Assembly (NCBI GenBank): GCA_964017155.1 | Contig: OZ024863.1 | Location: 37,856,038-37,920,037 of the forward strand | Length of the DNA: 64,000 bases | DNA from: Oasisia sp. SBJ-2009 | Taxonomy: Eukaryota; Annelida; Polychaeta; Sabellida; Siboglinidae | Reading direction: 5' to 3' | In this document: in pieces, positions 20,001 through 60,653 of the stretch | Layout: the number at the start of each line of letters is the position of its first letter | Numbering within the stretch: position 1 is the stretch's first letter | Translations under genes and position numbers: made by a program | Notes under the pieces: generated by a model | Seen by the model: only the letters and a program-made list of their open reading frames with translations | What the model was told of the DNA's origin: nothing | Database searches by the model: none

Positions 20001-20931
20001 GTAATGCTGCCACAACTGGATACAATAGGCCTAAGGGGTGTGTTGTTTTTATGTATCTTAGGCGTCCCATACAATTTTGGGGGTTCTTCCGACTCAGGGT
20101 ATAGCTTCCAGTACAGCTTGTCTGAGATGGACCCATTTCTCTGCCTGCCATCTACAATCAAATCATCCCGCCGAAATCTGAGGCAACACACGTGACATCA
20201 GTACGTGATCAAGGCCCGTAGACGACGGGTCGAAATGTCGTACTCGCTTCGACTAAAATGCTCCAAAGTAAGTAAATCATACTAAAATAAACCATTCTTG
20301 GAGCCATGAACAATATATTTACTATCTAAGTTCATGTTAGTTATATACGTGCACATTGTTACAAGCATTACATTTGTAGAACTGACTTGTGATTCTTAAC
20401 CTTGTGTTTTGTCAGTGATTGTGGCCGGTTGTAGGTGGCTCATCTGAAGGTGCTCAGTAACAAAGGTTTTCCTGAAACTTTGTTTCCTATCTACGATGGT
20501 AAGTTGTAGCACTAATGCCATTCCATTTATTTAACTCAACCCCATAAATGGTGTTTTAATGAAATGCATGCCAACTCCGTAGAGAACTTGTACATTGCCT
20601 AATAGATACCTGCCCTGTTTTACAAAAGTGAAATGCATGAAACCGATTTTCACTAGTGAACCTGTATTCACTACTGCTAGCACCACCCTTTGGATATTTT
20701 CTAGATAACAAGGAAACTAAACATTCTGTGCTGTTTGTTTGCAGGCAATAATGTTGTCGGGAGACAGGAGGGCACATGTAATGTGTTCATTCCACTTAAG
20801 GTAATACTGGAGTGACCCAGTTACACATGGGTTTGTGACAGACACATTTTATAAAGTAAAAAAATCCAAACAAGTATGTTAGGTCAAGTCTAAGGAATGG
20901 TCAACAGTAATGATAGTGTTCAGGTACTAAT

Positions 20932-37037: not shown

Positions 37038-37823
37038 TCACTGCCGCTGACAAAAGTCAGTGATGCTCTTCTGTTCAGCAAGGGCAGCGTGTCGGATGGA
37101 ATGTCCTTGCAGCAGGTCTCGAACTGTTGAAGCAGCCTCGAGCATTGCTGCGTCATTTGTACTCGGTGCAAAGCTGATGATGTCCTTCATCTGCAGTAAG
37201 CCGTCCTTTGCAGTGATGAGAGGACGGCCCTCTGGTTCATTTTCACTGTCTTCATCATCCTCTATGACAGCACCCCTGGCCTTGGCAACAAGTGCCTCCT
37301 CCCAGTCATCATCAGTGACATCCGTCGTGACGGTCGCATCGTCCATGCCGACGTAAGTTTCCCACGAAACACCACCCAACAGGCGCTCCACCCCTTCCCC
37401 GGGTTCGTCTAGGTCGGTGGCAGCCACCATGTCTTCTACCACGTCTTCTTCCACTCCACAATGCCACGAGTGGCAAAGCACTTGGTGATCGTGGCTGCAC
37501 CACGCCAGCCACACCCAACCAATGGCGTCCAGCGTATCCACTCGTTTGCTGAGTTCAGTGGCTGTGTTGGCGGTGTCCATCTCCGCAAGGATGTGTCGCA
37601 TCAGCCGCTTCCTGTAATGCGCCTTCGGTGTTGCGATTATTCCGGCGTCGCAAGGTTGAAGGCGTGACGTTGTTTTGGGCGGAAGAAACACAAGTTTCAC
37701 ATTTGCGAGCTGGACGTCAAGGTGTGCAACACAGTTGTCCAGAAGCAGCAGGATGTTGCGCTTCTGTGCCCACATCTTGCCGTCGAGTCGCTGCAGCCAC
37801 CCATTGAACAGGAGGCCCAGCAT
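37038..37823 (-). pseudogene. Tigger/pogo DDE transposase, C-terminal part, copy 2
   Basis: An open frame of 261 codons begins GLLFNGWLQRLDGKMWAQKR, then NILLLLDNCVAHLD (second catalytic Asp), VKLVFLPPKTTSRLQPCDAG (the LPPNTTS-LQP-D signature, third Asp) and a family tail with acidic WEEALVAKA. The DNA-binding half and first catalytic Asp are missing. Tigger transposases cut and paste with TA targets. Upstream sequence is replaced by a spacer and the minisatellite. Confidence 0.92.
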
Positions 37824-38112
37824 CCATGCCTATATCAAAGAAGAACTAACAACTACAAGTCACTAGCAGCGTACAAGCTCATCCAGGAAGGGTGGATACA
37901 TCACCTTGGTCTACACAGGTTTTATTAAACATGGCCAGGATCTGATCAAAAATCTATACCCTCGATCTAAATTTCTCTTCATTGATCAGGAATGTTGTCG
38001 GAATGTGAAATATTTCTAACCCAAATATTCGCAATGACAGTTGGGGCATGTCCCTAGAAGCAACAGGACCTTGCGCTTCTGTGCCCACATCTTGCCGTTG
38101 AGACGCTGCAGC
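37824..38112. other. Spacer between Tigger piece and array, copy 2
   Basis: The spacer matches 34,646-34,936. It ends in Tigger-like sequence with FKEWLQRLNGKM on the minus strand, into which the minisatellite is fused in frame. Confidence 0.5.
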
Positions 38113-38957
38113 CACTCCTTGAACAGAAGGCCCACCATCCACTCCTTGAACAGAAGGCCCACCATCCACTCCTTGAACAGAAGGCCCACCATCCACTCCT
38201 TGAACAGAAGGCCCACCATCCACTCCTTGAACAGAAGGCCCACCATCCACTCCTTGAACAGAAGGCCCACCATCCACTCCTTGAACAGAAGGCCCACCAT
38301 CCACTCCTTGAACAGAAGGCCCACCATCCACTCCTTGAACAGAAGGCCCACCATCCACTCCTTGAACAGAAGGCCCACCATCCACTCCTTGAACAGAAGC
38401 CCCGTCATCCACTCCTTGAACAGAAGCCCCGTCATCCACTCCTTGAACAGAAGGCCCACCATCCACTCCTTGAACAGAAGGCCCACCATCCACTCCTTGA
38501 ACAGAAGCCCCGTCATCCACTCCTTGAACAGAAGGCCCGTCATCCACTCCTTGAACAGAAGGCCCGTCATCCACTCCTTGAACAGAAGGCCCACCATCCA
38601 CTCCTTGAACAGAAGGCCCACCATCCACTCCTTGAACAGAAGGCCCACCATCCACTCCTTGAACAGAAGCCCCGTCATCCACTCCTTGAACAGAAGGCCC
38701 GTCATCCACTCCTTGAACAGAAGGCCCGTCATCCACTCCTTGAACAGAAGGCCCGTCATCCACTCCTTGAACAGAAGGCCCACCATCCACTCCTTGAACA
38801 GAAGGCCCACCATCCACTCCTTGAACAGAAGGCCCACCATCCACTCCTTGAACAGAAGGCCCACCATCCACTCCTTGAACAGAAGGCCCACCATCCACTC
38901 CTTGAACAGAAGGCCCACCATCCACTCCTTGAACAGAAGGCCCACCATCCACTCCTT
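38113..38957. repeat. 27-bp minisatellite from Tigger coding sequence, about 31 units
   Basis: Same unit as at 34.9 kb but twice as many copies. Three types (CACCATC, CGTCATC and a CCCCGTC variant) are arranged in blocks, indicating expansion by multi-unit duplications. Frames on both strands remain open throughout because the unit is a multiple of three. The left edge abuts piggyBac sequence at about 38,958. Confidence 0.95.
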
Positions 38958-38981
38958 GTTTGCCCAGTATATGTGGAAATG

Positions 38982-39795
38982 CTAGCCAGTGATGCTGTTG
39001 CAAAGTAGCAGCACAACGCTTTCACCGAGGCCAACTTCCACCCGATTGCTGTCCTTTCCTGTGTACATGCTGAATTCACACACATAGCCATTGTGTGAAT
39101 CAGCGCGCACCCACACCTTGATGCCGTACTTGTGTGGCTTCGCAGGTATGTACTGGCGAAAACCAAGACGCCCACGAAAAGCAACCATTGCCTCATCGAT
39201 CGCGTTTTCTCGAGGGGAATAATGCAGCACGGCATTCTCTTGGATGACGTCTGTGGCAGGTCGGAGGTCGTGAAGTTTGTCGTGGCCAGGTTGTCCTCTT
39301 CCAGGATTTTGGGTAGAATCACTGGCATGGAAGTACTGCAAGATTTTTTCAAATCGAGTACGAATCATGATTGCTTTTACTGGAAAGTTGCCAAAGAGGT
39401 GATCAGAGCTCCAGTACATCTTGTAGCTAGGCAACTGCACGCTGGACATGTAGATGTGAAGCCCAAGAAAACAGCGGATTTCCATTGCCGATGTCGGCTT
39501 ACCTGCCCACAGCTTGTCGACCTTCCCAGATTTCAGCTGACACTGACTGGCATAGCGATTAGTCTCAGTCGCAATCCACTCGTACAGTGTCGCCGGAAAC
39601 AGTAATTCAAAGAAATCGAGTTCATGTTTCTCTCCTGGTAGCGTCAGCGTAGGGCCTACTGGTTCTTGGAAAGCACTGACGGTGATCGGTGCTTTGTCAG
39701 CATCTTAAGTTAGCTCCATCGAACTATTAGATCACGGGCCAAGTCCACTCGTTGTCGCTGCTTTGCGATAAATCGCAGGTTTTTACAGACGAAAC
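38982..39795 (-). pseudogene. piggyBac-like transposase, N-terminal and first catalytic part
   Basis: The minus frame reads FFELLFPATLYEWIATETNRYAS and then MEIRCFLGLHIYMS, YWSSDHLFGN, ENAIDEAMVAFRGR (first catalytic Asp, IDEAM) and YIPAKPHKYGIKVW. These are DDE_Tnp_1_7 landmarks. Stops occur near 39,705-39,730. The second half is lost where the 27-bp array begins. The extreme N terminus is displaced to 44,245-44,340 by the 4.4-kb insertion. Confidence 0.9.
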
Positions 39796-40252
39796 ACTTG
39801 TGTAGGTATGTGACAAAAAAAATCAAACTCACAGTATCACCCCAACTTTGATATCATTGGAAAGAGCTTTAAAAGACCTTTCCCATGATACTAAGATCAG
39901 CTTCATAGGACAAATAATAAGCAAATGGCAGCCAATTAAAGGATCCAAATTCGCTTGTTTCCGGTCAATCTAAATAATGATAAACAATAGAGAAACAACT
40001 TAGACTTTGTGACCTGTTTTGTCATTTTGTGGTATAATTGGAGGAGGGATATTTCCCTTGTTCCTTGGTCAATTTCAGCAAACTAGGTATCATTTTAAAG
40101 CTTATGGAATGCAAATTCCTATAAATGTTAAAGAAAATGAATATTCCCAGAGATAATTAAGATTTAATTGTTACCCTTTAGACCCTTAACCGACTTCTGC
40201 TAAAATCAAAATATTTGAAAAATCCTTTAAAAAAAAAACCAAATCCTGCCAA

Positions 40253-40303
40253 GTTGGTATTCATTGGAAAGTTCTCAGCAAGAGCTTTTCAATGAATACC
40301 AAC
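40253..40303. repeat. Hairpin near the 3' end of the novel element
   Basis: GTTGGTATTCATTGG and its inverse CCAATGAATACCAAC-like partner form a stem of about 17 bp with one mismatch and a short loop. One arm is repeated at about 40,423. It lies just downstream of the ORF stop and could be a subterminal binding site or an RNA end structure. Confidence 0.7.
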
Positions 40304-40511
40304 ATCCCAGACATAATTATAAGATTTAGTTGTTTTAATCCCTTGGACCCTAAACCGAGTTCTGGTAAAATAAAAAAATTGAACAAAAACTTAAAAAATT
40401 ACTATACCGAAATCCTACCAAGTTGGTATTCATTGGAAAATTCTTAGCAAGAAACACTCACAATTAGTTCTCTACTCCAGTCGGTATGTCATCATAGTCT
40501 CTATTTCCACA

Positions 40512-42926
40512 TCAGCACAAAACCAAGTCCTCATACAGAAGATCTGCCCCAAGGGCCCACGGAGTCATCTCATAGTCTGTTGCATCTTCGTAACTTTCAT
40601 TGTCCAACCAGTATGCAATTACATAGCATTTCTTCAGTTTGGTCTTTTTCAGTTTTTCAACCCTCCCTGAATAAACAACCTGCTCATTTGTGTCTCCATC
40701 ATACCATGTGTGGCAGATGTCAAGTTCCACAATGGTACCGTTCAGAATTTGAAGCAAAGATTGATGAGTCTCATCCGAAATATTGGGGAATTCCGTCCGC
40801 AATTTGCCAATATCCACCGAATGCAACTTCTTCTCTGTTTCCTTCCTCTCCTTCTCATTCTTCTTCTGTTGCTTGAGTGCTGCCCTTCGTGAAAGTTCTA
40901 CCCGGACTTCAGACTGTTTCTGTCTTGCAACCCGTCTCTTCTTTCTGCCCCACCCTATGGCCCAGCTCACAGCACGCTCCCTCTCATCCTCATACATTTC
41001 ATCCAAATAGGGTACAACAGCATTTTTTTTGGCACGCATCCTAGCTACAAGGAAGTCCATGCTAGCATGTTTCGCTCGCTCCTGCATGGCCCCAAACATG
41101 CCCATAACCTCCTCTGCATCAATGTTATGTAGGCGGGCAGAACTGGTCTCCTCCTTCAGAATATCCGTCATGGTCATACTGAAGTATCGTTGATACTGCC
41201 TTTCAAGAACAGCAATGATGGCCTCAAAGCAAGCAGACATCATTCGGGCAAATAGGTCCATGTTGGAAGGCTGTCCTTGGAGACTTACAAGGGTGGGATC
41301 TTCACTAAGGGGTCGGCCGAAGAAATCAGAGTTGCGAGTCAGAGCAAGCTGTGGTGACTCTCTTGTCCTCTTCAGTTCCGAGATGACATTTTTTACGACG
41401 CCAATCCCTTCGATGTGGTCAATGGTAGCGGAGCTGGAACTTGCATAGAAGATCGACATCCACGGTCCCGTCAGAAGTTTGCCAATGAGCCCAAGACACT
41501 GGATTTGCATTTTGGCTATCTCATTGGTGAAATCTGTCCTTATACACGACTGAAGCCTCCCACATGAAACTGTACCCTTCGTGAAAAACTCCAAGAAGAG
41601 ACTGTAGTTATGATGCAGTTGCCCACAGATATGGTACAAAATGTGGAGTCTATTTCCACGATACCTTGGGAGAATTCCCTTTGGTATCTTTTTGTCGATC
41701 AAGAACGTAACAAACCCTTTTGGGTCCCCTTTTCCTGCTTTGTAACGAAATTTGTTTATGGACAAGACTAGATTTCCAGCAAGACAATCTTTTCCAAACA
41801 GTTCTCCACGTCCCGTCTCCATTTGTTTCAATGCTGACCTGCAGGAACTTGCCATCGTGTCCAGCGGGTGGAGATGGCAGTTTAATTCGTTTAAACTTTT
41901 TCCCCACTTCTCGCTGACTTTCGAAATTGCTGCATGATCAGCAGCCACTCTGTCCGTCATGGTATTGGCTATGTTACCAATAATCGTCGAACGACAGAAC
42001 TGATAATCCTCCTTGTGGTAGTCGGCATACACGTCCGCAAGATTATCTACCGATGAACACACGTGATCACAATAATCCGCCGCTGTGCCTCCGGCAAGTT
42101 CATCAATAGCTACTACTTCACATGTGGTGAAATGGATGCTATTTAGATGAACATGCTCCTGGGTCGTTGCATCGAATCCTAGAGTGAGGTTGCTGGTCTT
42201 CATAGACATTTCTGCGGTTTTCAGATCCGCCAAGGAGTCCAATTCCCTGGCCATCTGTTCGACAGTTGTTCGGCAATTAATGGCACTTAGTTTGTCCCCT
42301 GTGCGTTTTGCGTAACTTGCAATTAACGTTGGAATGTTTTGGGTAGGGACCATATTGACGATGGCATCGTACACTTGCATGCGCATTGCACTACTGTATG
42401 TTTTGCCATCCCTCTTGGTTTCCTTCTCCTTCTTGTCTTTTTCCACTTCCTCAAGCTTATCCCTGAGTGCACACATATCATTTTCATAAATTCGAATAAT
42501 TTCATCCTTTGCACTTAGTTCTTGTTTTAACTTGGCAAACCCCTTTGAAACTGTTTTCTTTGGACCAATGTTTTTTTTTTGGTTGTCCTTCAAAAGTTTA
42601 TGTGTACGCTTAAGCCGTTTGAAAAGTTCTGCATCACAGGAAAGGTTTGCGTCCTTCTTCGCCCCCATAATTTGTCGTTTTAATAATGTAATTGTCGCGT
42701 CCTTTGTTTTCATAGAGAGTTTCTTGCGTTCAATGTCCTGATTGAGGTATTTGATCTGATTCACCCTTTGTATATCAATATTTGCCCTAAGTTTTCTGAC
42801 GCGTTTTAGATACCTTTTCTTTTCCGCCCTGCGTCGATTTGACACAAAATGTAGTCGCTTTCTAAGTAATACTTTACGTGGCGTGAGAACCTGTCCAGAT
42901 GAAGGACCACGGTGCGGATGTGGCAC
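40512..42926 (-). CDS. Putative novel transposase, about 800 codons, uninterrupted
   Basis: The first codon shown is GTG, so the real start is probably in an upstream exon: a TTCAG acceptor precedes ATTCGGTGCC at about 42,931, and a matching donor GAAG|GTGAGT lies at 43,959. Residues 20-170 are very basic and coiled-coil-like. A conserved core follows: NLTLGFDATT (Asp about 252), NTMTDRVAAD (Asp 325) and NCHLHPLDTM (349-358). It resembles an RNase H-like fold with a C-H insertion, as in hAT-type enzymes. The C terminus (about 735-804) looks like a small beta-barrel, tudor- or chromo-like, with HTWYDGD, GRVEKL, YWLDNESYEDATDYEM and ADLLYEDLVL. It is the only long gene inside the TIRs, so I infer it mobilises the element. 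Catalytic residue assignment is tentative. Confidence 0.8.
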   Translation of the reverse strand: MPHPHRGPSSGQVLTPRKVLLRKRLHFVSNRRRAEKKRYLKRVRKLRANIDIQRVNQIKYLNQDIERKKLSMKTKDATITLLKRQIMGAKKDANLSCDAELFKRLKRTHKLLKDNQKKNIGPKKTVSKGFAKLKQELSAKDEIIRIYENDMCALRDKLEEVEKDKKEKETKRDGKTYSSAMRMQVYDAIVNMVPTQNIPTLIASYAKRTGDKLSAINCRTTVEQMARELDSLADLKTAEMSMKTSNLTLGFDATTQEHVHLNSIHFTTCEVVAIDELAGGTAADYCDHVCSSVDNLADVYADYHKEDYQFCRSTIIGNIANTMTDRVAADHAAISKVSEKWGKSLNELNCHLHPLDTMASSCRSALKQMETGRGELFGKDCLAGNLVLSINKFRYKAGKGDPKGFVTFLIDKKIPKGILPRYRGNRLHILYHICGQLHHNYSLFLEFFTKGTVSCGRLQSCIRTDFTNEIAKMQIQCLGLIGKLLTGPWMSIFYASSSSATIDHIEGIGVVKNVISELKRTRESPQLALTRNSDFFGRPLSEDPTLVSLQGQPSNMDLFARMMSACFEAIIAVLERQYQRYFSMTMTDILKEETSSARLHNIDAEEVMGMFGAMQERAKHASMDFLVARMRAKKNAVVPYLDEMYEDERERAVSWAIGWGRKKRRVARQKQSEVRVELSRRAALKQQKKNEKERKETEKKLHSVDIGKLRTEFPNISDETHQSLLQILNGTIVELDICHTWYDGDTNEQVVYSGRVEKLKKTKLKKCYVIAYWLDNESYEDATDYEMTPWALGADLLYEDLVLC

Positions 42927-43958
42927 CGAATCTGAAGGACTTATTAATCACCACAGGGAAATTACAGTTCTGCTTGTACGAAAATGCAAAGGCAAATATC
43001 ACCAATTTGTTTTATAAAATCACACTAAAACACAGACATAGACATTAAAAGCATTATTGAAATATTAAAATCTCACAAAAGTATTAAATACAAAACAAGT
43101 AGAATGACCCCCATACACCCTCATCCCTACATTAAATAAAAACATTACTACCACAGTTTAAAATTGCATAATACAGCATGCTGTTTTGCTAAGAGAAGTC
43201 ACCCAGGAGCTCAGCCCACAGGGCAATCAGTCATCCATAGGCATGTAGGAACCCTCACTACCACACCTCTGTTTAAGTGTTTTGTAATAGTAGACTGGTC
43301 TAGATAAACTGTGAGCCCTAAAGCTGACATCATCCAAAAAAGACATCAAGATAGGGTGAATGACAAAAGAAATTATAATAAAATGCAAAATATTTGTTGT
43401 CATTGAGTTTCATCATCAATGAACAGTTTGTGAATAGAAAAGATCTCAGTCACATCAAATTAAATATCCTTTCCAACTCACTATGAGCAAAAACCCTGGA
43501 AAAACCAGTGAAATACATGTCTAAAAGAAATCAGCTGAACAGACCACATGGCAATGTTTACAAAACACAGGCGAGTAGCTAATCAGATGGCGCCAATCAG
43601 GTCACGTGACCTAAATTCTCCTGCTGCATCTATTTTTAGCAGAACATGCCCTACAAAATCGCCCATCATCTGCTAATCAAAAGCGTATTCTGATAAAATA
43701 TCACCCTAGATGCCTTCTTAAACATCTTATTTCATCTTTATATCCAAGTTTGATTCGTATTTCGTGGCTAGATTACATATTTTGGACGATATTTGAAGGG
43801 TGAAAATCCTACAGATCGACCCTCGGTCGTGTTGAGAGCCATTACAGGGGGACCAACAATGGCCATGGGAATCGGTCAATTGCCACCAATTTTTGGGAAA
43901 TAATTCATGAATAATTAATAAAACATATTATCCAACTTTAGATAGATACTTTACTCAC

Positions 43959-44060
43959 CTTCTGCAAAATCGTCGAGCGTTTTGATGGTTGAAAAAAATG
44001 CAAAATTGCGGACGAAACTGCGAAAATTTGCAAAGATCGTTTTTCAAAAGACTGACAATT
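43959..44060 (-). other. Candidate upstream exon of the novel transposase
   Basis: The minus strand has an open stretch ending TIKTLDDFAE followed by a strong donor (GAAG|GTGAGT). Its phase 1 joins exactly to the phase of the acceptor at 42.93 kb. No ATG is seen in this frame after an upstream TGA, so the exon could be non-coding or the true start is elsewhere. Confidence 0.4.
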
Positions 44061-44244
44061 GCAAATGGCGATGTGTGTATAACGTCATTGAAGTATGTGT
44101 ACATATGGGAAGAACGTCAATAACACGAATAAAATGGATTTTTTGAGTGCTATCGTTGAGCAGCACTCGGCATTGAGAAAAACGAAAACGAGGCTTCCTG
44201 CCGAAGTGCGCTGCGCTTGAAACCAGAATTTTGTCACATACCTA

Positions 44245-44340
44245 ACTTGTGTCAGAGTGGCTTTCTAAATCAGCAGGCAATGTCTGATTTAAATCAGAAA
44301 CATTAAATCCAGTAAACTCAGAATCGGAATCGTCGGTCAT
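44245..44340 (-). pseudogene. Displaced N terminus of the piggyBac-like transposase
   Basis: From an ATG at 44,340 the minus strand reads MTDDSDSEFTGFNVSD and runs up to the target duplication. The acidic start is typical of piggyBac-like proteins. It continues beyond the 4.4-kb insertion at 39,795. Confidence 0.75.
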
Positions 44341-44554: not shown

Positions 44555-46100
44555 TCACCTTGCTTGGGCGTGAGCTGGGTGGCACCCGACAAATGTTGCA
44601 GCGCACTGGTCAGCAGAGCCTGGTAGTCGGGCTCGTGGCTGGCAGTCGAAGACCTCCCAGGCTGTGGCGCCAGACCAGGGGTGGAGGATGCTGCAGCCAT
44701 GTCCAACAGGGGCAGGGCAGTGAGGGCGGACCTCCCAGGCTGTGGCCAGACCAGGGGTGGACGATGCTGCAGCCATGTCCAACAGGGGCAGGGCAGTGAG
44801 GGCGGACCTCCCAGGCTGTGGCCAGACCAGGGGTGGAGGATGCTGCAGCCATGTCCAACAGGGGCAGGGCAGTGAGGGCGGACCTCCCAGGCTGTGGCCA
44901 GACCAGGGGTGGAGGATGCTGCAGCCATGTCCAACAGGGGCAGGGCAGTGAGGGCGGACCTCCCAGGCTGTGGCCAGACCAGGGGTGGACGATGCAGCAG
45001 CCATGTCCAACAGGGACAGGGCAGTGAGGGCGGACCTCCCAGGCTGTGGCCAGACCAGGGGTGGACGATGCTGCAGCCATGTCCAACAGGGGCAGGGCAG
45101 TGAGGGCGGACCTCCCAGGCTGTGGCCAGACCAGGGGTGGACGATGCAGCAGCCATGTCCAACAGGGACAGGGCAGTGAGGGCGGACCTCCCAGGCTGTG
45201 GCCAGACCAGGGGTGGACGATGCTGCAGCCATGTCCAACAGGGGCAGGGCAGTGAGGGCGGACCTCCCAGGCTGTGGCCAGACCAGGGGTGGACGATGCT
45301 GCAGCCATGTCCAACAGGGGCAGGGCAGTGAGGGCGGACGTCCCAGGCTGTGGCCAGACCAGGGGTGGACGATGCAGCAGCCATGTCCAACAGGGACAGG
45401 GCAGTGAGGGCGGACGTCCCAGGCTGTGGCCAGACCAGGGGTGGACGATGCAGCAGCCATGTCCAACAGGGACAGGGCAGTGAGGGCGGACGTCCCAGGC
45501 TGTGGCCAGACCAGGGGTGGACGATGCAGCAGCCATGTCCAACAGGGACAGGGCAGTGAGGGCGGACGTCCCAGGCTGTGGCCAGACCAGGGGTGGACGA
45601 TGCAGCAGCCATGTCCAACAGGGGCAGGGCAGTGAGGGCGGACCTCCCAGGCTGTGGCCAGACCAGGGGTGGACGATGCAGTAGCCATGTCCAACAGGGA
45701 CAGGGCAGTGAGGGCGGACGTCCCAGGCTGTGGCCAGACCAGGGGTGGACGATGCAGTAGCCATGTCCAACAGGGACAGGGCAGTGAGGGCGGACGTCCC
45801 AGGCTGTGGCCAGACCAGGGGTGGACGATGCAGTAGCCATGTCCAACAGGGGCAGGGCAGAGAGGGCGGACGTCAAAGGTTTGTCAGAATGCTGTGGTCG
45901 ACCTCGGACAACTGGGCCTCCAACGCCTGTATACGCCGCTTGAGATCTGAGTTGGTGGCACGCAAGACGTCAGCATCCACATCGCTGTCAGAGTCCAGGG
46001 TAGCCTCCACCAGTCGCGCAGGTGGACGTGTCAACTCGTGGAGTGTCGACGGGCAGGTAGCGGCCCACTTTCCAACCTTGTATCACTTTAGGCATCGCTG
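44555..46100 (-). pseudogene. Possible host exon pair hosting the 76-bp array
   Basis: On the high-coordinate side (46,080-45,890) the minus strand encodes a leucine-zipper-like DLKRRIQALEAQLSEV stretch, preceded by DSDSDVDADV and ended by TGA. On the low side (44,640-44,565) it encodes PDYQALLTSALQHLSGATQL followed by a good donor (AAG|GTGAGT). Non-repeat coding text on both sides hints that the array expanded inside a gene. I do not recognise the gene, and the frames do not join cleanly. Confidence 0.3.
44664..45885. repeat. 76-bp minisatellite, about 16 units, open in all minus frames
   Basis: Units carry ATGTCCAACAGGGGCAGGGC and CTCCCAGGCTGTGGCCAGAC. Because 76 is not a multiple of three, each frame cycles through three readings every 228 bp; all three minus frames stay open for 379 to 452 codons. 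Two sub-types (ATGCTGCAG and ATGCAGCAG or ATGCAGTAG) are arranged in blocks. Open frames alone are not taken as a gene. Confidence 0.93.
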
Positions 46101-49120: not shown

Positions 49121-49555
49121 TCATTGTTCACGTCCAGACCAGTAGACTAATGACTTTAAGCGTTCATGCATGACATGTATTGTAGAAATAAAGGTTCGTG
49201 AAACAGTAGATTTTGAAACTCCAAATCGGTATCCTAGGTCTTGCACTGGTGAATTTAGTCTTAATTTCATCAGCATAAGGACAAATTTGTGAAATGTTGA
49301 CAAACTTGACATGACACCTTCAAGCAGATGTGACAGTGCTATCAGTGTCACATAGCTAGGTAATCCAGTCATGTAGAGCACTTTCTTGTCATTTCCCGCG
49401 AAAGATTCTTTTGTAAATTGGGTGTTTAGCAGTTGTTGCTTGAGTGTCATGTTTTCAGTTCTAAGAGTCTGAAGTTCAGAGTTGAGGTTCATTTCCGAGT
49501 TATGATCAACGCTACAGGTACATTTCAATTCACTGTGCTTCAAATGTCCTGACAA
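49121..49555 (-). pseudogene. PIF/Harbinger helix-turn-helix half, diverged copy
   Basis: The frame has ELQTLRTENMTLKQQLL (coiled coil), LYMTGLPSYVTL, KFVLMLMKLRLNSPVQDL and FGVSKSTVSRTFISTI, ending in a LVYWSGRE motif. This is the N-terminal half of Harbinger-type DDE_Tnp_4 proteins, in which the helix-turn-helix binds DNA before the catalytic domain. The ...FDIIQPHLP part is replaced by a short deletion. A similar copy lies at 53,700-54,090. Confidence 0.82.
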
Positions 49556-49802
49556 CTTAAACGAACATATGTCTCTGTTGTCTCCTAGGAGACCCTCCTC
49601 TCACTCTTCTGGTGGAGTGGCAATGGACCAATCTAGCAGTACTTGTGCTGCAGTGTGTTGAATGTTCAGTTCTTTTCGAATTGTTGCTCTGTTTGGACCT
49701 TAACAAAAAGTTGAAGCTATTAAACATACAATGTTCCTACACTTGAACAACTAGAAAATTTCCACGAGTGTTTTCCATGCACAATCTTGAAGTGAACGGT
49801 TG

Positions 49803-50411
49803 TTATTCGTGGTCTGCATTGATGGGTAACTTAACGTTACAGGTGCCAGCCAATTTATTCTGAAATTTATTTCTTGCAATAGTGCTTTGTGTGCATGCTT
49901 TATGGATTTTTCGAACCTTCTGTCGAAGTCTTTGAACTTCATCATGTGGTTCGTTCAATTCTTTCCGAGACACACAACTGTGAAAATATAAATGAGTTTG
50001 TAATGACTTTAAGCGTTCATACATGACATGTATAGGTGAAATAAAGGTTCGTGAAACTGTAGATTTTGAAACTCCAAATGGGTATGCAAGGTCTTGCACT
50101 GGTGTACTCAGTCTTAATTTCATCAGCACAAGGACAAACTTGTGAAATGTTGACAAACTTGACATAAAACCTTCAGGCAGATGTGGCTGGATAATATCAA
50201 ACAGTGCTATCAGTGTCACATAGCTAGGTAATCCAGTCATGTAGAGCACGTTCTTGTCATTTCCCTCGAAAGATTCTCTTGTAATTTGGGTGTTTAGCAG
50301 TTTTTGCTTAAGTGTCATGTTTTCAGTTCTAAGAGTCTGAAGGTCAGAGTTGAGGTTCATTTCCGAGTTATGATCAATGTTACAGGTACATTTCAATTCA
50401 CTATGCTTCAA
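49803..50411 (-). pseudogene. PIF/Harbinger helix-turn-helix half, full-length copy A
   Basis: A 202-codon open frame: KHSELKCTCNIDHNSEM, coiled coil, YMTGLPSYVTLIALFDIIQP, FHKFVLVLMKLRL, VQDLAYPFGVSKSTVSRTF. After the helix-turn-helix the text (SCVSRKELNEPHDEVQRLRQ) departs from the usual YWPSRE junction, so the catalytic half was lost and replaced. Nearly identical copies follow at 51,885-52,493, 55,633-56,241 and 57,648-58,322. Confidence 0.85.
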
Positions 50412-51249
50412 ATTTCATGACAGCGTAAACGAGCATATGGCTCTCTGGTCTTCTAGGAGACCGCTGTGCTGAACTTTCAGTTCTTTTCGATTTGTTGATA
50501 TGTTGTACCTTAACAAAAAGGTAAAACTATTAAGGGACAACCTGGGGCTGGATTTTGTCAAATTTGGCCAAAAACTGTGATTTTGTGATGTTTGTGTTTG
50601 CAAAGAAAAATTGATCACTACATACCAATTTTTCCGCCTGAGCAAATTGGCTATACTACCTACAAAGCCCACTAGGGTAATACTAGTACTGGCCTAATCC
50701 ATTATATGTCGCCGCTTGCATTATCACCTCACATAAGATTATTCTACAATCACGAATCCTACTTCAGTTATTACAATCATTACAATCATACAGTATTTAC
50801 ATGTGTTGAAAATGTAATCATCCCTTAATTGTATCCCAGATGAGCCCAACAGTTGTTACCAAGAAACCTCCTCCCTAACCCTCCCTCTGTCTAGACACTG
50901 TTGGGTGTGACAGGGAACGGTGACAGTCACTGTCTTTAACTGGTCACATTCTCACAGCCGGTGACAGACTGTGTTGTGATGTCACTACCCAAGTCTCTGT
51001 TGCCTTGGCAGTCGAACTTCTTTAGTTGGTAACACCTTCGTATTATCCACTGTAGAAGACATGTCGTCTCAGTGGACATTCATGGGTCGTCACACGAAGT
51101 GGACACACATGGGTCGTCACACAGAATGAACTCTTCTAGTCCATGACACACCACAGTCATACGTGCTGGAAGTGTAGTAGGCAGTGTTTGAGTCAGGATT
51201 TGAAATTTAGGGGACATACTGGGTATGAAAAAAAGTGAGACATCACATT

Positions 51250-51573
51250 TTAGATAGAGACATGTATTTGTAAATAAATTATCAGCAAACTAAAAGAATC
51301 CAACATGCACCGCCTGGCCAGCACCGCACTGACTTGGCCCACAGCCCAGCCAGCACCGCACTGACTTGGCCCACAGCCCAGCCAGCACCGCACATGTGGC
51401 TGGATAATATCAAACAGTGCTATCAGTGTCACATAGCTAGGTAATCCAGTCATGTAGAGCACATTCTTGTCATTTCCCTCGAAAGATTCTTTTGTAATTT
51501 GGGTGTTTAGCAGTTTTTGCTTAAGTGTCATGTTTTCAGTTCTAAGAGTCTGAAGTTCAGAGTTGAGGTTCAT
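51250..51573 (-). other. Chimeric ORF: Harbinger N-terminal part fused to minisatellite
   Basis: The 107-codon frame reads Harbinger text to FDIIQPH and then turns into minisatellite-coded CGPSQCGAGWAVGQ and a hydrophobic tail (SFSLLIIYLQIHVSI). The same fusion occurs at 54,998-55,321 and 57,080-57,403 with identical protein. The junction lies at a shared ATGTGGCTGG word. Confidence 0.8.
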
Positions 51574-51884
51574 TTCCGAGTTATGATCAATGTTACAGGT
51601 ACATTTAAATTAACTGTGCTTCAAATGTCCTGACAACTTAAACGAACATATGTCTCTGTTGTCTCCTAGGAGACCCTCCTCTCACTCTTCTGGTGGAGTG
51701 GCAATGGACCAATCTAGCAGTACTTGTGCTGCAGTGTGTTGAATTTTCAGTTCTTTTCGAATTGTTGCTCTGTTTGGACCTTAACAAAAAGTTGAAGCTA
51801 TTAAACATACAATGTTCCTACACTTGAACAACTAGAAAATTTCCACAAGTGTTTTCCATGCACAATCTTGAAGTGAACGGTTTC

Positions 51885-52493
51885 TTATTCGTGGTCTGCA
51901 TTGATGGGTAACTTAACGTTACAGGTGCCAGCCAATTTATTCTGAAATTTATTTCTTGCAATAGTGCTTTGTGTGCATGCTTTATGGATTTTTCGAACCT
52001 TCTGTCGAAGTCTTTGAACTTCATCATGTGGTTCGTTCAATTCTTTCCGAGACACACAACTGTGAAAATATAAATGAGTTTGTAATGACTTTAAGCGTTC
52101 ATACATGACATGTATAGGTGAAATAAAGGTTCGTGAAACTGTAGATTTTGAAACTCCAAATGGGTATGCAAGGTCTTGCACTGGTGTACTCAGTCTTAAT
52201 TTCATCAGCACAAGGAAAAACTTGTGAAATGTTGACAAACTTGACATAAAACCTTCAGGCAGATGTGGCTGGATAATATCAAACAGTCGTATAAGTGTCA
52301 CATAGTTAGGTAATCCAGTCATGTAGAGCACGTTCTTGTCATTTCCCTCGAAAGATTCTCTTGTAATTTGGGTGTTTAGCAGTTTTTGCTTAAGTGTCAT
52401 GTTTTCAGTTCTAATAGTCTGAAGGTCAGAGTTGAGGTTCATTTCCGAGTTATGATCAATGTTACAGGTACATTTCAATTCACTATGCTTCAA
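51885..52493 (-). pseudogene. PIF/Harbinger helix-turn-helix half, copy B
   Basis: Same 202-codon frame as copy A, with a few substitutions (LPNYVTLIRLFD). Confidence 0.85.
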
Positions 52494-52937
52494 ATTTCAT
52501 GACAGCGTAAACGAGCATATGTCTCTCTGGTCTTCTAGGAGACCGCTGTGCTGAACTTTCAGTTCTTTTCGATTTGTTGATATGTTGTACCTTAACAAAA
52601 AGGTAAAACTATTAAGGGACAACCTGGGGCTGGATTTTGTCAAATTTGGCCAAAAACGGTGATTTTGTGATGTTTGTGTTTGCATAGAAAAATTGATCAC
52701 TACATACCAATTCTTCCGCCTGAGCAAATTGGCTATACTACCTACAAAGCCCACTAGGGTAATACTAGTACTGGCCTAATCCATTATATGTCGCCGCTTG
52801 CATTATCACCTCACGTAAGATTATTCTACAATCACGAATCCTACTTCAGTTATTTCAATCATTACAATCATACAGTATTTACATGTGTTGAAAATGTAAT
52901 CATCCCTTAATTGTATCCCAGATGAGCCCAACAGTTG

Positions 52938-53250
52938 TTACCAAGAAACCTCCCTAACCCTCCCTCTGTCTAGACACTGTTGGGTGTGACAGGGAACGGT
53001 GACAGTCACTGTCTTTAACTGGTCACATTCTGACAGCCGGTGACAGATTGTGTCGTGACAGTCGTCACCCAAGTCTCTGTTGTCTTGGCAGTCGAACCTC
53101 TGTAGTTGGTGACATACTGGTATCCCCTGAGAAATGACAGCTAGTAACATTGACGTGAGATGACATTCGCACAAGTTTAGTTTTCGTAGACTTGTCCAGT
53201 GGAGAAGACATGTCATGTTGTCTCCTAAGTGGACACACATGGGTCGTCAC
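52938..53250 (-). pseudogene. NLR-type leucine-rich-repeat fragment (block L3)
   Basis: The longest open copy of the LRR piece (100 codons), continuing after RDLGDD with CHRLSECDQLKTVTVTV. Nearly identical to the 48.4-kb copy. Confidence 0.6.
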
Positions 53251-53349
53251 CCAAAGTCAGTCGATACTACAGGGCTTACCACACCTACCTCCACTCCTCA
53301 TTCGACATTACTGTTGACATATTCACGCTTCACTGATTTAGTGATTACC

Positions 53350-53583
53350 TCAGCACTCGTATGCATCTACCTGCCTCTCTTGCATGGCTTTCACGTTGCC
53401 TGGAGAATAGCGAGGTTTCTCCACAATCTGACAGTCTCGTGCAATGTGACCCTGTTTGTTGCATAAAAAATATTGTACACACTCATATACATGGTTCTCA
53501 GTCACATGACCAAAATAGCCCCCCCTATCGACGGAAGCCATGGTGTGTGTCAAGCGGACTACAGCGTCATTAGCAGCCGCCAT
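53350..53583 (-). pseudogene. Retroelement zinc-knuckle fragment, copy 2
   Basis: Second copy, reading YFLCNKQGHIARDC; here the His is kept but the first Cys is still Tyr. Confidence 0.55.
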
Positions 53584-54997
53584 TGTTTAGACAGAGATAT
53601 CCTCCGCATTCTATATAAATTTCGAAGCAGTCAATTATGATGGCCACCATAAGTCCCAAACGTTTGTGAAACTGAAGGGTCATTGTTCACGTCCAGACCA
53701 GTAGACTAATGACTTTAAGCGTTCATGCATGACATGTATTGTAGAAATAAAGGTTGGTGAAACAGTAGATTTTGAAACTCTAAATCGCTATGCTAGGTCT
53801 TGCACTGGTGAATTTAGTCTTAATTTCATCAGCATAAGGACAAATTTGTGAAATGTTGACAAACTTGACATGACACCTTCAAGCAGATGTGACAGTGCTA
53901 TCAGTGTCACATAGCTAGGTAATCCAGTCATGTAGAGCACTTTCTTGTCATTTCCCGCGAGAGATTCTTTTGTAAATTGGGTGTTTAGCAGTTGTTGCTT
54001 GAGTGTCATGTTTTCAGTTCTAAGAGTCTGAAGTTCAGAGTTGAGGTTCATTTCCGAGTTATGATCAATGTTACAGGTACATTTAAATTAACTGTGCTTC
54101 AAATGTCCTGACAACTTAAACGAACATATGTCTCTGTTGTCTCCTAGGAGACCCTCCTCTCACTCTTCTGGTGGAGTGGCAATGGACCAATCTAGCAGTA
54201 CTTGTGCTACAGTGTGTTGAATGTTCAGTTCTTTTCGATTTGTTGATATGTTGTACCTTAACAAAAAGGTAAAACTATTAAGGGACAACCTGGGGCTGGA
54301 TTTTGTCAAATTTGGCCAAAAACGGTGATTTTGTGATGTTTTTGTTTGCATAGAAAAATTGTTCACTACATACCAATTCTTCCGCCTGAGCAAATTGGCT
54401 ATACTACCTACAAAGCCCACTAGGGTAATACTAGTACTGGCCTAATCCATTATATGTCGCCGCTTGCATTATCACCTCACGTAAGATTATTCTACAATCA
54501 CGAATCCTACTTCAGTTATTACAATCATTACAATCATACAGTATTTACATGTGTTGAAAATGTAATCATCCCTTAATTGTATCCCAGATGAGCCCAACAG
54601 TTGTTACCAAGAAACCTCCTCCCTAACCCTCCCTCTGTCTAGACACTGTTGGGTGTGACAGGGAACGGTGACAGTCACTGTCTTTAACTGGTCACATTCT
54701 CACAGCCGGTGACAGACTGTGTTGTGATGTCACTACCCAAGTCTCTGTTGCCTTGGCAGTCGAACTTCTTTAGTTGGTAACACCTTCGTATTATCCACTG
54801 GAGAAGACATGTCGTCTCAGTGGACATTCATGGGTCGTCACACGAAGTGGACACACATGGGTCGTCACACAGAGTGAACTCTTCTAGTCTATGACACACC
54901 ACAGTCATACGTGCTGGAAGTGTAGTAGGCAGTGTTTGAGTCAGGATTTGAAATTTAGGGGACATACTGGGTATGAAAAAAAGTGAGACATCACATT

Positions 54998-55321
54998 TTA
55001 GATAGAGACATGTATTTGTAAATAAATTATCAGCAAACTAAAAGAATCCAACATGCACCGCCTGGCCAGCACCGCACTGACTTGGCCCACAGCCCAGCCA
55101 GCACCGCACTGACTTGGCCCACAGCCCAGCCAGCACCGCACATGTGGCTGGATAATATCAAACAGTGCTATCAGTGTCACATAGCTAGGTAATCCAGTCA
55201 TGTAGAGCACATTCTTGTCATTTCCCTCGAAAGATTCTTTTGTAATTTGGGTGTTTAGCAGTTTTTGCTTAAGTGTCATGTTTTCAGTTCTAAGAGTCTG
55301 AAGTTCAGAGTTGAGGTTCAT
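54998..55321 (-). other. Chimeric Harbinger-minisatellite ORF, copy 2
   Basis: Same open frame and same junction as at 51,250. Confidence 0.8.
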
Positions 55322-55632
55322 TTCCGAGTTATGATCAATGTTACAGGTACATTTAAATTAACTGTGCTTCAAATGTCCTGACAACTTAAACGAACGTATG
55401 TCTCTGTTGTCTCCTAGGAGACCCTCCTCTCACTCTTCTGGTGGAGTGGCAATGGACCAATCTAGCAGTACTTGTGCTGCAGTGTGTTGAATGTTCAGTT
55501 CTTTTCGAATTGTTGCTCTGTTTGGACCTTAACAAAAAGTTGAAGCTATTAAACATACAATGTTCCTACACTTGAACAACTAGAAAATTTCCACAAGTGT
55601 TTTCCATGCACAATCTTGAAGTGAACGGTTTC

Positions 55633-56241
55633 TTATTCGTGGTCTGCATTGAAGGGTAACTTAACGTTACAGGTGCCAGCCAATTTATTCTGAAATTTAT
55701 TTCTTGCAATAGTGCTTTGTGTGCATGCTTTATGGATTTTTCGAACCTTCTGTCGAAGTCTTTGAACTTCATCATGTGGTTCGTTCAATTCTTTCCGAGA
55801 CACACAACTGTGAAAATATAAATGAGTTTGTAATGACTTTAAGCGTTCATACATGACATGTATAGGTGAAATAAAGGTTCGTGAAACTGTAGATTTTGAA
55901 ACTCCAAATGGGTATGCAAGGTCTTGCACTGGTGTACTCAGTCTTAATTTCATCAGCACAAGGACAAACTTGTGAAATGTTGACAAACTTGACATAAAAC
56001 CTTCAGGCAGATGTGGCTGGATAATATCAAACAGTGCTATCAGTGTCACATAGCTAGGTAATCCAGTCATGTAGAGCACGTTCTTGTCATTTCCCTCGAA
56101 AGATTCTTTTGTAATTTGGGTGTTTAGCAGTTGTTGCTTAAGTGTCATGTTTTCAATTCTAAGAGTCTGAAGTTCAGAGTTGAGGTTCATTTCCGAGTTA
56201 TGATCAATGTTACAGGTACATTTCAATTCACTATGCTTCAA
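55633..56241 (-). pseudogene. PIF/Harbinger helix-turn-helix half, copy C
   Basis: Same frame, kept open over 202 codons. Confidence 0.85.
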
Positions 56242-57079
56242 ATTTCATGACAGCGTAAACGAGCATAAGGCTCTCTGGTCTTCTAGGAGACCGCCGTGCT
56301 GAACTTTCAGTTCTTTTTGATTTGTTGATATGTTGTACCTTAACAAAAAGGTAAAACTATTAAGGGACAACCTGGGGCTGGATTTTGTCAAATTTGGCCA
56401 AAAACGGTGATTTTGTGATGTTTGTGTTTGCATAGAAAAATTGATCACTACATACCAATTCTTCCGCCTGAGCAAATTGGCTATACTACCTACAAAGCCC
56501 ACTAGGGTAATACTAGTACTGGCCTAATCCATTATATGTCGCCGCTTGCATTATCACCTCACGTAAGATTATTCTACAATCACGAATCCTACTTCAGTTA
56601 TTACAATCATTACAATCATACAGTATTTACATGTGTGGAAAATGTAATCATCCCTTAATTGTATCCCAGATGAGCCCAACAGTTGTTACCAAGAAACCTC
56701 CTCCCTAACCCTCCCTCTGTCTAGACACTGTTGGGTGTGACAGGGAACGGTGACAGTCACTGTCTTTAACTGGTCACATTCTCACAGCCGGTGACAGACT
56801 GTGTTGTGATGTCACTACCCAAGTCTCTGTTGCCTTGGCAGTCGAACTTCTTTAGTTGGTAACACCTTCGTATTATCCACTGGAGAAGACATGTCGTCTC
56901 AGTGGACATTCATGGGTCGTCACACGAAGTGGACACACATGGGTCGTCACACAGAGTGAACTCTTCTAGTCTATGACACACCACAGTCATACGTGCTGGA
57001 AGTGTAGTAGGCAGTGTTTGAGTCAGGATTTGAAATTTAGGGGACATACTGGGTATGAAAAAAAGTGAGACATCACATT

Positions 57080-57403
57080 TTAGATAGAGACATGTATTTG
57101 TAAATAAATTATCAGCAAACTAAAAGAATCCAACATGCACCGCCTGGCCAGCACCGCACTGACTTGGCCCACAGCCCAGCCAGCACCGCACTGACTTGGC
57201 CCACAGCCCAGCCAGCACCGCACATGTGGCTGGATAATATCAAACAGTGCTATCAGTGTCACATAGCTAGGTAATCCAGTCATGTAGAGCACATTCTTGT
57301 CATTTCCCTCGAAAGATTCTTTTGTAATTTGGGTGTTTAGCAGTTTTTGCTTAAGTGTCATGTTTTCAGTTCTAAGAGTCTGAAGTTCAGAGTTGAGGTT
57401 CAT
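57080..57403 (-). other. Chimeric Harbinger-minisatellite ORF, copy 3
   Basis: Same open frame and same junction, 2,082 bp from copy 2. Confidence 0.8.
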
Positions 57404-57647
57404 TTCCGAGTTATGATCAATGTTACAGGTACATTTAAATTAACTGTGCTTCAAATGTCCTGACAACTTAAACGAACATATGTCTCTGTTGTCTCCTAGG
57501 AGACCCTCCTCTCACTCTTCTGGTGGAGTGGCAATGGACCAATCTAGCAGTACTTGTGCTGCAGTGTGTTGAATGTTCAGTTCTTTTCGAATTGTTGCTC
57601 TGTTTGGACCTTAACAAAAAGTTGAAGCTATTAAACATACAATGTTC

Positions 57648-58322
57648 CTACACTTGAACAACTAGAAAATTTCCACAAGTGTTTTCCATGCACAATCTTG
57701 AAGTGAACGGTTTCTTATTCGTGGTCTGCATTGAAGGGTAACTTAACGTTACAGGTGCCAGCCAATTTATTCTGAAATTTATTTCTTGCAATAGTGCTTT
57801 GTGTGCATGCTTTATGGATTTTTGAACCTTCTGTCGAAGTCTTTGAACTTCATCATGTGGTTCGTTCAATTCTTTCCGAGACACACAACTGTGAAAATAT
57901 AAATGAGTTTGTAATGACTTTAAGCGTTCATACATGACATGTATAGGTGAAATAAAGGTTCGTGAAACTGTAGATTTTGAAACTCCAAATGGGTATGCAA
58001 GGTCTTGCACTGGTGTACTCAGTCTTAATTTCATCAGCACAAGGACAAACTTGTGAAATGTTGACAAACTTGACATAAAACCTTCAGGCAGATGTGGCTG
58101 GATAATATCAAACAGTGCTATCAGTGTCACATAGCTAGGTAATCCAGTCATGTAGAGCACGTTCTTGTCATTTCCCTCGAAAGATTCTTTTGTAATTTGG
58201 GTGTTTAGCAGTTGTTGCTTAAGTGTCATGTTTTCAATTCTAAGAGTCTGAAGTTCAGAGTTGAGGTTCATTTCCGAGTTATGATCAATGTTACAGGTAC
58301 ATTTCAATTCACTATGCTTCAA
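57648..58322 (-). pseudogene. PIF/Harbinger helix-turn-helix half, copy D (frame-extended)
   Basis: One missing base near 57,823 shifts the frame after RLRQKVQ, giving a longer 224-codon open frame with a different tail. Confidence 0.83.
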
Positions 58323-60653
58323 ATTTCATGACAGCGTAAACGAGCATATGTCTCTCTGGTCTTCTAGGAGACCGCTGTGCTGAACTTTCAGTTCTTTTCG
58401 ATTTGTTGATATGTTGTACCTTAACAAAAAGGTAAAACTATTAAGGGACAACCTGGGGCTGGATTTTGTCAAATTTGGCCAAAAACGGTGATTTTGTGAT
58501 GTTTGTGTTTGCATAGAAAAATTGATCACTACATAGCAATTCTTCCGCCTGAGCAAATTGGCTATACTACCTACAAAGCCCACTAGGGTAATACTAGTAC
58601 TGGCCTAATCCATTATATGTCGCCGCTTGCATTATCACCTCACGTAAGATTATTCTACAATCACGAATCCTACTTCAGTTATTACAATCATTACAATCAT
58701 ACAGTATTTACATGTGTTGAAAATGTAATCATCCCTTAATTGTATCCCAGATGAGCCCAACAGTTGTTACCAAGAAACCTCCTCCCTAACCCTCCTCCTG
58801 TCTAGACACTGTTGGGTGTGACAGGGAACGGTGACAGTCACTGTCTTTAACTGGTCACATTCTCACAGCCGGTGACAGACTGTGTCGTGACAGTCGTCAC
58901 CCAAGTCTCTGTTGTCTTGGCAGTCGAACCTCTGTAGTTGGTGACATACTGGTATCCCCTGAGAAATGACAGCTAGTGACATTGACGTGAGATGACATTC
59001 GCACAAGTTTAGTCTACGGAGACTTGTCCAATGGAGAAGACATGAGTGGACACTCATGGGGTCGACACACAAAATGAACTCTTAGTCCCTGACACACCCC
59101 AGTCGTAGCAGGTGACAGACTGTGTTGTGATGTCACTACCCAAGTCTCTGTTGCCTTGGCAGTCGAACTTCTTTAGTTGGTAACACCTTCGTATTATCCA
59201 CTGGAGAAGACATGTCGTCTCAGTGGACATTCATGGGTCGTCACACGAAGTGGACACACATGGGTCGTCACACAGAGTGAACTCTTTTAGTCCATGACAC
59301 ACCACAGTCATACGTGCTGGAAGTGTAGTAGGCAGTGTTTGAGTCAGGATTTGAAATTTAGGGGACATACTGGGTATGAAAAAAAGTGAGACATCACATT
59401 TTAGATAGAGACATGTATTTGTAAATAAATTATCAGCAAACTAAAAGAATCCAACATGCACCGCCTGGCCAGCACCGCACTGACTTGGCCCACAGCCCAG
59501 CTAGCACCACACATGTGGCTGGATAATATCAAACAGTGCTATCAGTGTCACATAGCTAGGTAATCCAGTCATGTAGAGCACATTCTTGTCATTTCCCTCG
59601 AAAGATTCTTTTGTAATTTGGGTGTTTAGCAGTTTTTGCTTAAGTGTCATGTTTTCAGTTCTAAGAGTCTGAAGTTCAGAGTTGAGGTTCATTTCCGAGT
59701 TATGATCAATGTTACAGGTACATTTCAATTCACTATGCTTCAAATTTCATGACAGCGAAAACGAGCATATGTCTCTCTGGTCTTCTAGGAGACCGCTGTG
59801 CTGAACTTTCAGTTCTTTTCGATTTGTTGATATGTTGTACCTTAATAAAAAGGTAAAACTATTAAGGGACAACCTGGGGCTGGATTTTGTCAAATTTGGC
59901 CAAAAACGGTGATTTTGTGATGTTTGTGTTTGCATAGAAAAATTGATCACTACATAGCAATTCTTCCGCCTGAGCAAATTGGCTATACTACCTACAAAGC
60001 CCACTAGGGTAATACTAGTACTGGCCTAATCCATTATATGTCGCCGCTTGCATTATCACCTCACGTAAGATTATTCTACAATCACGAATCCTACTTCAAT
60101 TATTTCAATCATTACAATCATACAGTATTTACATGTGTTGAAAATGTAATCATCCCTTAATTGTATCCCAGATGAGCCCAACAGTTGTTACCAAGAAACC
60201 TCCTCCCTAACCCTCCTTCTGTCTAGACACTGTTGGGTGTGACAGGGAACGGTGACAGTCACTGTCTTTAACTGGTCACATTCTCACAGCCGGTGACAGA
60301 CTGTGTCATGACAGTCGTCACCCAAGTCTCTGTTGCCTTGGCAGTCGAACTTCTTTAGTTGGTGACATCTTCGTATTATCCACTGGAGAAGACATGTCGT
60401 CTCAGTGGACACTCATGGGTCGTCACACGAAGTGGACACACATGGGTCGTCACACAGAGTGAACTCTTCTAGTCCATGACACACCACAGTCATACGTGCT
60501 GGAAGTGTAGTAGGCAGTGTTTGAGTCAGGATTTGAAATTTAGGGGACATACTGGGTATGAAAAAAAGTGAGACATCACATTTTAGATAGAGACATGTAT
60601 TTGTGAATAAATTATCAGCAAACTAAAAGAATCCAACATGCACCGCCTGGCCA

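Follow-up and report, generated by a model that had tools for sequence, protein, structure and literature searches.

An internally deleted, probably hAT-like transposon with a 7-bp target site duplication in the annelid Oasisia

The genome of the siboglinid annelid Oasisia sp. SBJ-2009 holds a 4442-bp element (positions 39803-44244, between ACTTGTG direct repeats) in the 64,000-nucleotide stretch analyzed here as the window (assembly GCA_964017155.1, contig OZ024863.1, positions 37,856,038 to 37,920,037). We regard it, with good confidence, as a hAT-like cut-and-paste transposon that encodes a DDE/CxxH transposase, has been internally deleted and is probably inactive. Cut-and-paste transposition with a 7-bp stagger follows directly from the products, as the duplication is perfect in all 19 insertions of this and related elements that were examined.

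An earlier sequence-only reading of the window had described perfect 16-bp inverted ends and perfect ACTTGTG direct repeats, and both are present. The terminal inverted repeats (TIRs) match at 16 of 16 positions and are identical in the four other copies found (5/5). The arrangement of 16-bp inverted ends without mismatch next to a perfect 7-bp direct repeat occurs once in the window and in none of 200 control shuffles preserving dinucleotides. Because the TIR begins with T, which also follows the right-hand repeat, the window insertion alone could also be read as an 8-bp duplication (ACTTGTGT), a reading that copy L026 rules out on either side. The ends of the family take the form TAG[G/C]TATGTG. 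Repeats lying just inside, whose core CATTGGAAA recurs at positions 53, 455 and 624 of the full copy L025, are candidate transposase binding sites.

Searching the 764-Mb host genome with the element ends, in which all copy counts are lower bounds, retrieved further copies. The left end (101 bp) gave at least 40 scored matches: five near-identical ones including the window's own, 12 at 73-75% identity extending to the terminus, and 23 at 80-84% with an internal match only. The first two groups were examined completely, the third for the C4 element described below. The right end gave at least five full matches, which are the same five copies, plus one partial match. The sequence-only reading had named genome copies lacking the same ends as grounds for giving it up; since the copies have their ends in common, these grounds fall away. 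Their duplications read ACTTGTG in the window, CTTGTAT in L025, TACTAAG in L026, ATTAAAC in L027 and TAATATA in L012. Similarly, 12 related elements of 1257-1420 bp with ends TAGCTATGTG carry perfect 7-bp repeats in 12/12 cases, the repeat-bearing right end having been chosen among several possible ones. A scan for TAG-type ends covered nine loci of relatives, one of them a known copy, and ends were followed for two autonomous lineages, C4 (4422 bp, repeat CACATCG) and C3 (5650 bp, repeat CCTCTTG), both with perfect 7-bp repeats. The repeats show a weak palindromic preference: of 17 tallied, 14 begin with C or T and 15 end with G or A.

The full copies also show what the window copy has lost. 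The long frame of about 800 codons noticed before is indeed uninterrupted (804 codons), but neither it nor the copy is intact, as had been claimed. L025 (5710 bp; ORF at L025:2926-5847) and L026 (5679 bp) carry open reading frames (ORFs) of 974 amino acids that differ at two residues; the internal deletion of the window copy removes transposase residues 1-166, and compared with L025 there are in-frame losses of one and three residues plus 12 substitutions. The GTG listed as the start of the 804-codon frame is not the start of the family's gene. L027 (5635 bp) has its coding region divided over two frames. A DAVPDPQPGPS tandem repeat of the full copies (residues ~120-165; four units in L025 and L026, three in L027) adjoins the edge of the deletion. 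An upstream exon supplying the N-terminal domain was sought in the window copy by tblastn and an unfiltered hidden Markov model (HMM) search, which found none above chance, and the idea was rejected because the full copies show an internal deletion instead. Among the substitutions, N330D and P217N fall in columns conserved in at least 97% of the other alignment rows, and G734E replaces a glycine present in 68 of 73 rows. In departures from conserved columns the window protein ranks 11th of 81 (3 of 66 columns; median 1). Judged by its sequence, the window copy is likely dead, and it is probably a damaged, internally deleted and inactive member of a cut-and-paste family. Divergence is 0.37-0.41% among the full copies and about 1% between these and the window copy. 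The ORFs of L025 and L026 differ by five synonymous and two non-synonymous changes, with non-synonymous sites 3.59 times more numerous. Since the full copies are nearly identical and two of them open, with few non-synonymous changes, we conclude that the family was recently active and constrained.

The structure model and fold comparisons agree with the proposal that the ORF encodes a transposase in which a coiled coil and an RNase H-like DDE core are followed by a Tudor-like barrel at the C terminus. At least 175 relatives were found at E ≤ 0.001 among 7993 candidates scored, with 120 among the matches listed. Named sources among the matches listed belong to seven animal phyla and include a priapulid, molluscs, echinoderms, Hydra, fishes and a hagfish, arthropods and an annelid; many rows are nameless. 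The family is widespread in animals and apparently unclassified: in the HMM check against named superfamilies that had been suggested, no Pfam family matched the window protein or the 974-residue L025 protein at E ≤ 10. A Pfam scan of 35 relatives (E ≤ 1) listed scattered families, mostly coiled-coil. A model of the N-terminal domain matches 45 of 47 relatives of at least 900 residues, from which it was partly built; the L025 protein, left out of the model, matches it at 5.5e-31. PDB searches by sequence returned nothing, coiled coils or chance rows, and pattern matches to relatives in viral_contigs (53) and genome_contigs (26) yielded no confirmed case. Two distant relatives in the genome (G000 C14:27912479-27914308 and C6:33118029-33119345; 25-36% identity, frames open over 812 and 605 codons) are possibly further subfamilies or host genes.

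For classification, the core is the most informative part. In a structure search of the modeled core the top folds were Hermes, a hAT transposase, and the match to Hermes covers 339 residues of core plus helical insertion. The likeness comprises the RNase H core with the DDE triad, the CxxH motif, a big helical insertion before the Glu, and short TIRs. Hermes and hAT differ in their 8-bp duplication, against 7 bp in 19/19 insertions here, and the present protein adds a Tudor-like barrel; the hAT N-terminal BED zinc finger and the C-terminal dimerisation domain (PF05699) found no Pfam match in the window and L025 proteins. Comparison with a hAT profile, made from Hermes relatives alone, was not significant; it aligns D252, D325 and C350/H353 with Hermes D180, D248 and C265/H268. 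None of the Pfam HMMs assigns the ORF to a named superfamily, but since its core resembles Hermes, we prefer to speak of a deep hAT-like lineage rather than of an undescribed system.

An ordinary hAT member, from a 7-bp branch as in hAT7 and already filed as hAT in Repbase, would account for the Hermes-like core, the CxxH motif and the TAG-type ends, which we take to resemble hAT ends. Duplication length agrees with this as well: hAT5, hAT6 and hAT7 groups have duplications of 5, 6 and 7 bp (PMC12730594), and an example query in the Repbase paper is a hAT with a 7-bp target site duplication (PMC4455052). The hAT7 elements of rust fungi share the 7-bp duplication but are fungal, with transposases that group with fungal and plant hAT, and 20 of their families encode a TET/JBP dioxygenase (PMC12730594). 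We consider ordinary membership a serious possibility that falls short of probable: in 59 of 60 listed Hermes relatives Pfam finds one or more domains of the group, yet in the present proteins it finds none, and the profile match is not significant. Literature keyword searches, which do not cover Repbase entries, found no description of the family, nor did the literature searched describe a Hermes-like core combined with a Tudor-like barrel in elements whose ends and duplication are consistent.

The profiles lie equally far from hAT and P, the two compared. Together with N- and C-terminal domains of its own, the lack of a Pfam family and the distribution over animals, this could indicate that the family forms a DDE superfamily by itself within the C/DxxH group, apart from hAT, P, Dada, Kolobok and MuDR. 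The 339 residues that track Hermes argue against such a separation, which we likewise think possible without thinking it probable. P elements have a coiled coil, helix-turn-helix-like helices and a core in similar order, and an 8-bp duplication. The coiled coil, the DDE core with insertion and a duplication within the 7-8 bp of the P superfamily (7 bp, as in Galileo; PMC2775673) would fit membership there, and the P profile score of 25.2 about equals that of hAT. Such an assignment is nevertheless very improbable, since Pfam matched neither THAP nor GTP-binding nor P RNase H domains, whereas P relatives have the latter two and often THAP (119 of 120 listed carry PF21787 or PF21788), and the best folds are Hermes; a P-element structure is not among the 50 rows listed for the core, which excludes nothing.

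The sequence-only reading had taken the 7-bp duplication to point away from known systems. This is not supported, and the length itself is not new: apart from Galileo (PMC2775673), hAT7 (PMC12730594) and the Repbase example (PMC4455052), Dada has 6-7 bp (PMC3706591; PMC8869645). Dada, also of the C/DxxH group, was rejected: it has two zinc fingers (CCCC and CCHC), lacks TIRs and targets small-RNA genes (PMC3706591), whereas here C350 (plus C381 in the 81-row alignment) alone is a cysteine conserved in at least 90% of rows, perfect 16-bp TIRs occur in 5/5 copies, and the window insertion lies in a piggyBac-like gene. The KDZ (Zisupton) duplication is 8 bp (PMC12730594), not the 7 bp found here, and Pfam matched no KDZ transposase domain in the window or L025 protein, no dedicated KDZ profile search having been made. 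IS3EU was set aside for its usual 6 bp and its other transposase group (PMC10045372).

The modeled C-terminal barrel agrees with a Tudor fold. In structure comparison its 24 top rows are Spindlin (16-21% identity), followed by other Tudor domains. Spindlin Tudor repeat 2 heads these rows and has a similar aromatic cage spacing; Spindlin differs in having three Tudor repeats and in not being a transposase. Pfam Tudor matches were obtained for 5 and 3 of 34 relatives and none for the window's own fragment. The cage positions are aromatic in 52 of 68 rows, and the barrel may read chromatin marks. It could also be pictured as a structural end piece without chromatin reading, given that small barrels resemble many folds, that the Foldseek match was not significant and that one cage position varies; against the Spindlin and Tudor rows and the Pfam matches in some relatives, we give this somewhat less than an even chance.

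The insertion was said to interrupt a piggyBac-like frame that rejoins cleanly. When the element and one repeat are removed in silico, one of three minus-strand frames is indeed open across the junction, but two stops follow ~25 codons further on, so the host piggyBac-like copy was itself already broken; the piggyBac assignment rests on a piece on one side of the junction (Table 1). Two minisatellites flank the insertion (38112-38958, 27-bp unit x31; 44651-45871, 76-bp unit x16) and give rise to long spurious ORFs beside it. A minus-strand ORF at 37038-37823 (Pfam DDE_1, E 7.4e-21) is a fragment of another transposase. Elsewhere in the window, a 1202-bp element (18660-19861) has perfect TIRs from CATACATGTTAAGT, unlike the ends of the main element, and a 7-bp repeat TATGACA; it is surrounded by a larger perfect inverted-repeat pair (CGTACTGATGTCACGTG..., 17452-20205) flanked by TGATCA. 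GATTACCTAGCTATGTGACACTG occurs nine times on the minus strand (49358-59558) as part of a repeat of long period, with a unit similar to the TIR either by chance or by descent.

Table 1. Features of the element and its target, in window coordinates; residues are those of the window protein.
Feature	Position	Strand	Basis or remark
Piece of interrupted piggyBac-like gene	38982-39485	-	Pfam DDE_Tnp_1_7, E 1.6e-41
Left target site duplication ACTTGTG	39796-39802		perfect 7-bp repeat, as in all 19 insertions examined
Left TIR TAGGTATGTGACAAAA, 16 bp	39803-39818	+	3' end in gene orientation
Subterminal repeats (putative sites)	39834-39876, 40241-40283, 40410-40452; inverted one 40281-40310		whole region 39834-40452
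Open frame, 804 codons, 5'-truncated transposase gene	40512-42926	-	ORF list, comparison with full copies
Tudor-like barrel (predicted), residues 733-804	40515-40730	-	cage-position aromatics W741, Y752, Y772, Y779
RNase H-like core with alpha-helical insertion (predicted), residues 244-643	40998-42197	-	structure model, fold comparison
Candidate catalytic Glu E605	41112-41114	-	E in 80/81 rows, one gap
CxxH motif, C350 to H353	41868-41879	-	C350 and H353 each in 81/81 rows
Candidate second catalytic Asp D325	41952-41954	-	D in 80/81 rows
Candidate first catalytic Asp D252	42171-42173	-	D in 80/81 rows
Coiled-coil segment, residues 16-161	42444-42881	-	predicted helices; PDB profile matches are coiled-coil proteins
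Internal deletion junction	42940/42941		1185, 1232 and 1258 bp here in L027, L026 and L025
Right TIR, 16 bp	44229-44244	-	5' end in gene orientation
Right target site duplication ACTTGTG	44245-44251		perfect copy of the left repeat

In the mechanism we propose for this hAT-like lineage, the N-terminal helical domain (which the window copy has lost) and the subterminal repeats would recruit the transposase to the element ends, the coiled coil would multimerise it, and the RNase H core would cut with a 7-bp stagger, possibly by flanking-hairpin cleavage as in hAT, because CxxH is kept. The Tudor barrel might hold a methylated histone tail and would thereby bias the landing site of the element. 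The window copy may have been moved in trans, or deleted after landing. Chromatin-guided integration is known for some long terminal repeat (LTR) retrotransposons and retroviruses. A bolder version, in which the family is an unrecognised superfamily-level animal lineage outside hAT proper whose Spindlin-like reader of the H3K4me3 type directs insertion to that mark, seems unlikely to us.

With this work, the many proteins filed as 'uncharacterized' acquire element ends and a duplication length, and because two nearly identical open copies exist, the family offers a practical subject for study. If the proposed site bias were true, it might provide a gene-delivery tool with a different preference, and with a DNA transposase that carries a methyl-lysine-reader-like domain of its own, one could test directly whether cut-and-paste elements target chromatin.
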